Below, piece by piece: positions 23,133 to 24,639 of a stretch of DNA of 64,000 nucleotides; positions within the stretch are counted from its first letter, which is position 1, and each line of letters opens with the position of its first letter. The stretch comes from Kastovskya adunca ATA6-11-RM4 (GTDB taxonomy: Bacteria > Cyanobacteriota > Cyanobacteriia > Cyanobacteriales > Coleofasciculaceae), in NCBI GenBank assembly GCA_019359445.1, contig JAHHHJ010000012.1, positions 124,001 to 188,000 of the forward strand, read 5' to 3'. The position numbers and the translations under genes were made by a program. A model generated the notes under the pieces. It did no database searches. It had not been told where the DNA came from and saw nothing but the letters and a program-made list of their open reading frames with translations.

Positions 23133-23243
23133 CCGAGTACAAACGGCTTAGGGTGAGGATTTTGCAGAGACACACTCAGCCGAATCGTGGCAGTATTACA
23201 GAACTTAGAGCAAAGCCCACCTATGGGAAAGGGTGGGATGTAG

Positions 23244-23276
23244 CGACAAGCGCTTTTAAGCGCCGTCGTTTTTTTC
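23244..23276 (+). terminator. Hairpin with T-run downstream of rlpA
   Basis: GCGCTT/AAGCGC arms (23250-23263), flanked by CGAC and GTCG, are followed by eight T residues at 23269-23276, a rightward intrinsic terminator. It overlaps the 3' end of the divergent small gene, and may isolate tnpB from rlpA transcription. Confidence 0.55.
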
Positions 23277-23420
23277 TGCAAGTGTGTCTATCCAATCTTC
23301 GATTAGTTGAGTCATCGTCTTTTCCTTAGCCTCAGCTATTCTTCTAAGCTTTTGAAGCCTACTAACCGTTATTCGCAAACTTAACCTTTCTTTGCTCATA
23401 TCTACCCGTTGGCTATCCAT
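23256..23420 (-). CDS. Ribbon-helix-helix-like 54-residue protein divergent from tnpB
   Basis: Small DNA-binding protein candidate of 54 residues, from ATG 23420 to TAA 23256. After MDSQRVDMSKERLSLRITV (beta strand) come two helices: SRLQKLRRIAEAKEKTMTQLI and EDWIDTLAEK. A single Arg-rich beta strand followed by helix-turn-helix of this length is the ribbon-helix-helix (CopG/MetJ) layout. It is divergent from tnpB (18 bases apart), so the shared promoter region could be its operator. It may repress tnpB or the element. Too short for most gene callers. Confidence is high that it is a gene, moderate for its role. Confidence 0.7.
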   Translation of the reverse strand: MDSQRVDMSKERLSLRITVSRLQKLRRIAEAKEKTMTQLIEDWIDTLAEKNDGA

Positions 23421-23438
23421 TTAGACTAGAATACTAGC

Positions 23439-24572
23439 ATGAAGACTCTGAAGTTCAAGCTGTATCAGCACAAGCGCAATCGGTATCTCAAGCGGTCAAT
23501 CAATGCCTCTGGAGTTATCTATAACCATGCGATTGCCCTGCACAAACGGTATTACCGGATGTGGGGAAAGTACTTGAACTGTGCCAAACTTCAGAAACAT
23601 ATTGCCAAGCTGCGGAAGCGTAACCCGTTTTGGCAGTTGGTAGGTTCTCAAGCTGTTCAAGATATTTGCCAACGGATTGACAAAGCCTACCAACTGTTCT
23701 TTAAACATCACAAGAAAGGAGTCAGACCACCTGGATTTAAGAAGGTCAAGAAGTATAAGTCATTCACTCTAAAGCAAGCTGGCTACAAATTCCTTGGCGG
23801 CAACCGAATCAAGATAGGGAACAGAGTGTACCAATACTGGAACTCTAGGAAAATAGAAGGGACGGTCAAGACACTGACTATCAAGCGCACACCCTTGGGT
23901 GAGTTGTTTATGGTCGCAGTGATTGACAGCACTCTGGAGCCACAAATCAAAACCACGACGGGTAAGATAGCGGGTTTTGATTTCGGACTCAAGACATTTC
24001 TCACCTGCTCTGAAGAATTCAAGATTGAATCGCCTCAATTCCTGAAAGCTGCACTCAATAACATTTGTAAAGCTTCAAGACACCATTCAAAAAAGCTCAA
24101 GGGTTCTAATAATCGAGAGCAAGCCAGAAAGTGCTTAGTCCGTCAATATGAAGCTGTCTCTAACCGAAGACGTGACTGGTTCTGGAAGCTGGCACACGAC
24201 TTGACTAGCAAGTTTGATGTGTTGTGCTTTGAGACTCTAAACCTCAAAGGGATGCAGCGGCTGTGGGGACGCAAGATTGGGGATTTAGCATTAGGTGAAT
24301 TCCTAGAAATTCTAGAGTGGGTAGCCAAAAAGAAAGGCAAGCAGGTTATCTATATTGACCCGTGGTATCCATCCACTAAGACTTGCTCTTGCTGTGGTCA
24401 TGTTCTAAACTCTCTAGATTTATCAGTTAGACGTTGGCGTTGTCCGTCTTGCCAGTCAGTAAATGACCGTGACGAAAATGCCAGCATTAATATCAAAAGG
24501 GTTGGGAGTTCAACCCTAGGCGTAGGAGATGTCAGACAGTGCAATAACCTGCAATCTCTGTCTGATGCCTGA
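23439..24572 (+). CDS. tnpB: TnpB family RNA-guided endonuclease
   Basis: Transposon-encoded RNA-guided nuclease, ancestor-type of Cas12, of 377 residues. All RuvC catalytic positions appear intact: Asp in AGFDFGLKTFLT (near residue 173), Glu in CFETLNLKGMQ (near 265) and Asp in SVNDRDENASINI (near 345). A zinc finger CSCCG...CPSC separates the last two. The N-terminus MKTLKFKLYQHKRNRYL and the KFKKYKSFTLKQAGYK region bind nucleic acid in relatives. Short dispersed hairpins overlap the 3' end (24499-24597), as expected of its guide RNA. No frameshift is seen. No tnpA accompanies it. Confidence 0.93.
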   Translation: MKTLKFKLYQHKRNRYLKRSINASGVIYNHAIALHKRYYRMWGKYLNCAKLQKHIAKLRKRNPFWQLVGSQAVQDICQRIDKAYQLFFKHHKKGVRPPGFKKVKKYKSFTLKQAGYKFLGGNRIKIGNRVYQYWNSRKIEGTVKTLTIKRTPLGELFMVAVIDSTLEPQIKTTTGKIAGFDFGLKTFLTCSEEFKIESPQFLKAALNNICKASRHHSKKLKGSNNREQARKCLVRQYEAVSNRRRDWFWKLAHDLTSKFDVLCFETLNLKGMQRLWGRKIGDLALGEFLEILEWVAKKKGKQVIYIDPWYPSTKTCSCCGHVLNSLDLSVRRWRCPSCQSVNDRDENASINIKRVGSSTLGVGDVRQCNNLQSLSDA

Positions 24573-24606
24573 ATCCCATCGGCTTCTATCCGTGGGAGTG
24601 GCTCAA
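24499..24606 (+). ncRNA. Candidate TnpB omega RNA (reRNA) scaffold
   Basis: Three hairpins lie in a row at the tnpB 3' end: GGGTTG/CAACCC (24499-24516), TCAGACAG/CTGTCTGA with an 18-base loop (24532-24565), and TCCCA-CGG/CCG-TGGGA with one bulge (24574-24597). The first two are inside the coding sequence. Characterised TnpB guide RNAs overlap the gene's end and finish at the element's right end, with the guide taken from flanking DNA; here the guide would begin close to 24606. The 5' end of the RNA is not determinable. Confidence 0.5.
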
Positions 24607-24639
24607 TACTGAATGCAGTGACACCGTGAGATAAAACTT

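Follow-up and report, generated by a model that had tools for sequence, protein, structure and literature searches.

A ribbon-helix-helix gene in the tnpA slot of cyanobacterial tnpB elements probably encodes a dedicated, exchangeable autorepressor

Introduction

CopG, a plasmid copy-number repressor, and Arc of phage P22 are minimal ribbon-helix-helix (RHH) proteins of 45-55 aa. They bind as dimers to half-sites about one helical turn apart and regulate their own synthesis. The small cyanobacterial gene described here is likewise predicted to encode a minimal RHH protein, and both repressors are among its fold matches. CopG acts on plasmid replication and Arc on a phage gene, whereas the RHH gene here lies next to the gene for an RNA-guided nuclease carried by an insertion sequence.

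IS605-type elements with divergent tnpA and tnpB resemble the present element in their TTAC/TCAA ends, which we take to be IS608-like, in their hairpin ends and in having a small gene divergent from tnpB. That gene encodes a Y1 transposase in the IS605 type, whereas here it is a repressor-like RHH gene and the transposase would come from elsewhere. Such tnpB-only elements are of the IS1341 type. The type II toxin-antitoxin systems TacAT, KacAT and AtaRT also combine a small RHH partner with an adjoining, potentially harmful gene. Here, in contrast, the two genes are divergent instead of co-directional, a conserved toxin-binding tail is missing and the partners are exchangeable. According to the available part of PMC13418256, TldR proteins are nuclease-dead TnpB-like repressors, which also link TnpB with transcriptional repression. 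In TldR the TnpB relative itself represses, whereas here a TnpB with putative catalytic residues is the presumed target.

Little is known about the control that insertion sequences exert over their own RNA-guided nucleases. No report of an RHH-tnpB pairing was found in the available parts of the open-licence literature, including PMC3119063, PMC9956272, PMC12737573, PMC8303175, PMC8987985, PMC6006769, PMC10711439 and PMC11870625. RHH repressors of mobile elements are already known; exchangeable RHH controllers of tnpB elements are, judged by that literature, apparently new. If a repressor is dedicated and exchangeable and its site can be read, nuclease control could be put to direct test in a small system. 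Many RHH/operator pairs of differing specificity would then be available too, as natural data on the RHH recognition code.

Results and discussion

A small gene with a predicted RHH fold opposite tnpB

The window (the whole analysed stretch of 64,000 nucleotides) contains an insertion sequence whose limits were set by the recurrent start and stop points of similarity among other copies. Its features are listed below.

23196-23199, plus strand: putative target/TAM tetranucleotide TTAC at the element's left end; copy similarity begins at 23196 (query 797) in several genomes
23200-24606, plus strand: IS200/IS605-type insertion-sequence element, right end ...GTGGCTCAA
About 23216-23238, no strand assigned: left-end hairpin CCCACC...GGTGGG, found by eye; relatives have hairpin-forming sequence too
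23256-23399, minus strand: RHH gene of probably 47 codons and a stop; the 54-codon ORF reaches 23420
23402-23410, plus strand: putative operator half-site 1, CTACCCGTT; direct repeat matching at 7/9 positions with 11-bp spacing
23413-23421, plus strand: putative operator half-site 2, CTATCCATT; from the same 7/9 direct repeat
23427-23432, plus strand: likely tnpB -10 box TAGAAT, by eye
23439-24572, plus strand: tnpB, 377 aa; NCBIfam NF040570 guided_TnpB, 239.8 bits (cut-off 100)
24573-24606, plus strand: right end with hairpin TCCCA...TGGGA (by eye) and TCAA; end placed from copy boundaries

TTAC was also seen by eye upstream of the left ends of many relatives, and on the right the similarity among copies breaks off at query 2207-2208 (24606-24607) in many instances. 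An intact putative TnpB active site (D181, E265 and D345, positioned via alignment and presumably catalytic), hairpins and the TTAC/TCAA end tetranucleotides mark the element as IS200/IS605-type. No tnpA ORF for a Y1 transposase was listed within the element, and its divergent slot is occupied by the RHH gene. An empty site was not seen, as the flanking genes (which we take to be rlpA-like on the left and DUF1499-like on the right) had matches in relatives solely on different contigs or, where one contig bore both, at a wide distance. At tnpB in the window, scanning for the sigma-70 consensus gave no promoter. As the candidate -10 box lies 6 nt ahead of the tnpB ATG, a near-leaderless tnpB mRNA is predicted.

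A terminator-like hairpin with a T run, at window positions 23250-23275, is directed into the element and overlaps the RHH stop codon. It might shield tnpB against outside transcription, for which one site against 0.5 expected is weak support. In relatives G339 and G340, many matches span just the right end (query about 2092-2208) or the left end (797-878); these are remnants, miniature elements or contig breaks in repeats.

The sequence-only reading had proposed a 54-residue gene opposite tnpB, 18 bases from its start. A 54-codon ORF does exist on the minus strand at 23256-23420, with its first ATG 18 bases away from that of tnpB at 23439; the protein, however, is probably 47 aa. In an alignment of 30 relatives, several of them pre-trimmed to likely starts, the start codons line up with Met8 of the ORF. 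A start at Met8 would place the start codon at 23397-23399, 39 bp from tnpB. Codons 1-7 of the ORF would overlap the putative operator. The gene had also been placed within the left hairpin region. The two share the left part of the element, but the gene, ending at 23256, adjoins the hairpin and is not inside it.

The AlphaFold2 model had a mean pLDDT of 87 (blocks 11-40 at 94-97), with predicted helices at 19-32 and 36-46 preceded by an extended segment, to which DSSP on the monomer model assigned no strand. Its structure matches were almost entirely RHH repressors and antitoxins, at weak E-values as expected with so short a chain. Foldseek aligned CopG with an rmsd of 0.9 at E 0.4 and gave no row at E<0.001, while VIA gave Z of 5-6 to TacA1, Arc, KacA, PutA, NikR and CopG and none of 8 or above. 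Alone, the window protein scored under the Pfam gathering scores (DUF6364 E 0.002, CopG_antitoxin 0.08). In HMM comparison of the 30 relatives, DUF6364 was matched by 16/30 and RHH_1 by 9/30 at E<=0.01. The family profile searched against the PDB reached only E 0.09-0.15, for KacA, ParG and CopG. The structure predictions support a place in the RHH superfamily, with a strand-helix-helix layout of about 45 residues, and a fold unlike RHH, which would have spoken against the earlier proposal, was not what the model gave. Further, we infer a dimer that contacts DNA via its beta strands, as expected of this superfamily, for which the 11-bp repeat described below is indirect support.

Recurrence beside other tnpB genes

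The earlier proposal also turned on whether the same small gene stands beside other cyanobacterial tnpB genes. It was found at many, though not all, related copies. The own genome has 24 tnpB-like matches, of which 23 were examined (the 57-residue fragment L026 was left out). A divergent RHH ORF was present at 8/23 loci (E <2e-16; next best 0.82), and tnpA, by eye, occupied the divergent slot at three. The TnpBs of L008 and L011, which carry RHH, and of L009, which carries tnpA, are near-identical at their start. For 80 close cyanobacterial TnpB relatives, the slot held RHH in 34 (two weak, L044 and L048), tnpA or part of it in 16 and neither in 28, while the sequence was too short in 2; tnpB thus stood without RHH in 44 of the 78 having upstream sequence. 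An HMM lacking the window's type recovered 32 RHH genes, 28 of them at E<1e-3, with a best value elsewhere of 0.4. Decayed RHH genes were seen by eye upstream of tnpB in three of the 28 empty loci (L072, L073 and L075), where the matching operator motif remains.

Searching from the RHH side gave matches in 34/339 genomes, the own included. Among 89 loci examined, of about 106-108 RHH places outside the own genome, 64 face a TnpB match (E<=1e-3), 22 do not and 3 had no RHH call. Some of the partners are tnpB fragments, for example of 40-65 aa in L110, L124 and L126. The 22 without a TnpB match comprise 6 at contig ends, 13 facing a conserved RNA and 3 others. In a less biased set, drawn from five further genomes, RHH was present at 3/40 tnpB starts (3/15, 0/19, 0/6) and tnpA at 4/40; these 40 were above the cut-off with the start present, at least G004:C75 was omitted, and L381 spans just 169 bases. 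The RHH-tnpB pairing is therefore strong where RHH is present, yet far from universal.

No RHH gene was found at 30 iscB loci (40 matches in 12 genomes; two of the loci overlap one iscB). A plasmid search with the window RHH returned three cyanobacterial records, one of them significant (E 2e-4), and two other RHH subtypes gave no match there. Likewise, RHH was in the slot at 0/10 plasmid tnpB loci (3 from cyanobacteria and 7 from elsewhere), chosen among 60 listed of 3207 records, with L289 having only about 300 bases upstream. On the matched Calothrix NIES-22 plasmid, the RHH gene is annotated as 'hypothetical protein' and adjoins an IS605 OrfB that the annotation splits into two pieces.

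The dN/dS of the RHH gene was 0.32 pooled, with a median of 0.17 (36 disjoint pairs). It exceeded 1 in two of the most diverged pairs (1.24 and 1.82), which are near saturation. Among pairs with pN up to 0.18, pN was below pS in 24/24, with a ratio of means of ~0.14 as calculated from rounded values. Judged by these substitution patterns, the RHH gene is under purifying selection. Because the gene recurs beside other tnpB genes and bears this mark of selection, beyond what chance would give, the small gene is real. The putative catalytic D-E-D residues are kept in 29/29 intact RHH-linked TnpB copies, so there would be a nuclease present to restrain.

A direct repeat at the tnpB promoter

At 61 non-redundant loci we scored a 34-nt stretch that begins at the RHH start codon and runs in the direction of tnpB, with dinucleotide shuffles as the null. 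These loci were obtained from 106 operator regions by removing 11 with an uncertain RHH start and thinning the remaining 95 by similarity. A 9-mer direct repeat with a spacing of exactly 11 bp was strongly enriched (mean best score 5.98 versus 3.87 shuffled, z 12.8), and a score of 7/9 was reached at 25/61 loci versus 1.4 expected. None of the other spacings from 5 to 16 rose above z 2.7. The enrichment was found in two separately collected subsets (z 10.9, n=34; z 6.8, n=27) and not in control upstream regions with tnpA (z -0.2, n=10) or with an empty slot (z -0.6, n=20). The extended -10 motif TGnTAnnnT was present 18-34 nt past the RHH start at 34/61 loci versus 1.9 in shuffles. Where a strong repeat is followed by the motif (18 loci), the distance from the second half-site to the motif start is -1 to 6 nt. 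By eye, the window has a plain TAGAAT in place of TGnTAnnnT.

Inverted repeats were not above chance over all 61 loci (3/61 at p<0.05); by eye they occur in subtypes A', B and part of C. The exact operator 17-mer has one occurrence in the own genome, and a wider regulon was unsupported there, with 14 places at 2 mismatches versus 8 with a reversed control pattern.

Six tnpA-slot elements (L032, L047, L049, L057, L096 and L099) carry a near-perfect inverted repeat, ATGTAGAT-N11-ATCTACAT, between tnpA and tnpB, which is perhaps an operator for another regulator.

Site similarity followed RHH similarity when TnpB was held constant (partial Mantel r 0.59, p 0.0002, 22 loci), and more weakly followed TnpB when RHH was held constant (r 0.25, p 0.003, 22 loci). 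On a TnpB tree of 70 tips, restricted to TnpBs of at least 300 aa, the slot state (RHH, tnpA or none) requires 20 changes and the RHH subtype 9. The strongly supported inner branches (16/66) alone force at least 4 RHH changes. Subtype motifs match 31/36 RHH loci (A 9/10, A' 3/3, B 6/7, C 9/9, D 4/7), counts that are partly circular because the motifs were derived at these same loci. The A pattern also hits A' (2/3), B (1/7), tnpA loci (2/16) and empty loci (3/28), the last being, by reading, the three with decayed RHH. From such comparisons, the RHH gene and its site appear to form a cassette that takes tnpA's place and is swapped between related elements. Hence some of these RNA-guided nucleases probably move together with a repressor of their own that annotation has missed. 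In tnpB-only elements, the vacant tnpA position is where annotators may look for a gene of 45-60 codons.

Proposed role of the RHH protein

The idea that the gene regulates tnpB, first raised by the sequence-only reading, gained comparative support from the fold, the recurrence in the divergent slot and the promoter repeat that accompanies RHH. Judging from these sequence patterns, the RHH protein is quite likely a minimal CopG/Arc-type autorepressor dedicated to the tnpB of its own element. Two RHH dimers would sit on the two half-sites, 11 bp or one helical turn apart as in Arc and CopG, covering the beginning of the RHH gene and the stretch that leads from its start codon to the tnpB -10 box. 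Bound RHH would block the tnpB promoter together with RHH's own overlapping promoter. The outcome would be an autoregulated low TnpB expression, with the guide likewise low. The anatomy fits the low expression through RHH that had been suggested. The alternative suggestion, that the protein senses element copy number, is more speculative. Dimerisation, DNA binding, repression, an effect on omegaRNA and a benefit are what we infer for this protein. As stated in the available part of PMC10278001, TnpB turns its own mRNA into omegaRNA, so repression would set nuclease and guide alike.

It is very unlikely that RHH is an antitoxin that binds and neutralises TnpB itself and, like its type II counterparts, acts on the promoter only secondarily. 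The RHH fold is common among antitoxins, TacA1, AtaR and KacA stand among the best structure rows, and a nuclease gene does adjoin the RHH gene; but in the 30-relative alignment the chains stop soon after helix 2 with no conserved C-terminal extension, and similar TnpBs are served by differing RHH subtypes. Moreover, tnpB lacks RHH in the 44/78 relatives counted above and 13 RHH loci have no TnpB; the toxin-binding tail plus regular pairing of a type II system is thus not what RHH-TnpB displays. We give a similarly small chance to a helper of transposition or maintenance, which might bind DNA near the left end or recruit TnpA in trans. RHH and tnpA occupy one and the same place, and RHH-bearing elements, being without tnpA, need a transposase in trans, yet the conserved repeat sits at the tnpB promoter instead of the element ends, and empty-slot elements occur (28/80). 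Both readings are made less likely by the missing tail, the exchanged subtypes and the promoter-located repeats. That the gene is a host- or plasmid-type regulator picked up by accident, or a spurious ORF, is in effect refuted by the recurrence from both sides and the purifying selection, since the shortness, the sub-threshold Pfam scores of the protein by itself and the 'hypothetical protein' label on the one annotated plasmid match viewed are set against recurrence, selection, fold, slot, a single operator 17-mer in the genome and the 14 versus 8 two-mismatch places.

RHH loci facing a structured RNA

In place of tnpB, thirteen RHH loci, and also L161 with a decayed RHH, face a conserved sequence that measures 364-418 nt with its promoter end. 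Three of the thirteen are given here as examples, with ten similar RHH loci besides.

L148:1905-2290, plus strand: structured RNA
L155:1318-1697, minus strand: structured RNA
L178:1316-1706, minus strand: structured RNA

The RNA consensus from 10 loci has 49 pairs, 24 of them with compensatory changes. The RNA terminates at GGGGTACTTCAC following a hairpin, which is apparently where the element ends on the right, and has matches in 17/329 cyanobacterial genomes. Beside the listed RNA copies there was no TnpB match and no recognised nuclease ORF. At 14 loci, Rfam gave no family at gathering score except a tRNA. The IscB omegaRNA (HEARO) was rejected as its identity: none of four weak Rfam matches of L148 was HEARO, the RNA motifs were absent at 30 iscB loci, and the HEARO model had matches in 8/8 genomes searched, none at the RNA places there. 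Our guess is a stand-alone guide RNA under RHH control.

Returning to the dedicated autorepressor, a broader picture can be offered tentatively. Interchangeable RHH-plus-operator cassettes may form an immunity-like control layer of cyanobacterial tnpB elements, one that silences TnpB and its guide RNA in the resident cell and releases them when an element enters a cell or site without the matching repressor. The subtypes would then act as compatibility groups, and the tnpB-less RHH-RNA elements could be guide-only members, parasites or regulators.

During the HEARO searches, HEARO matches were seen to far outnumber iscB (RRXRR) matches in three genomes (41 versus 10 in G298, 47 versus 9 in G048 and 22 versus 6 in G042), so many HEARO copies in these genomes may be stand-alone.
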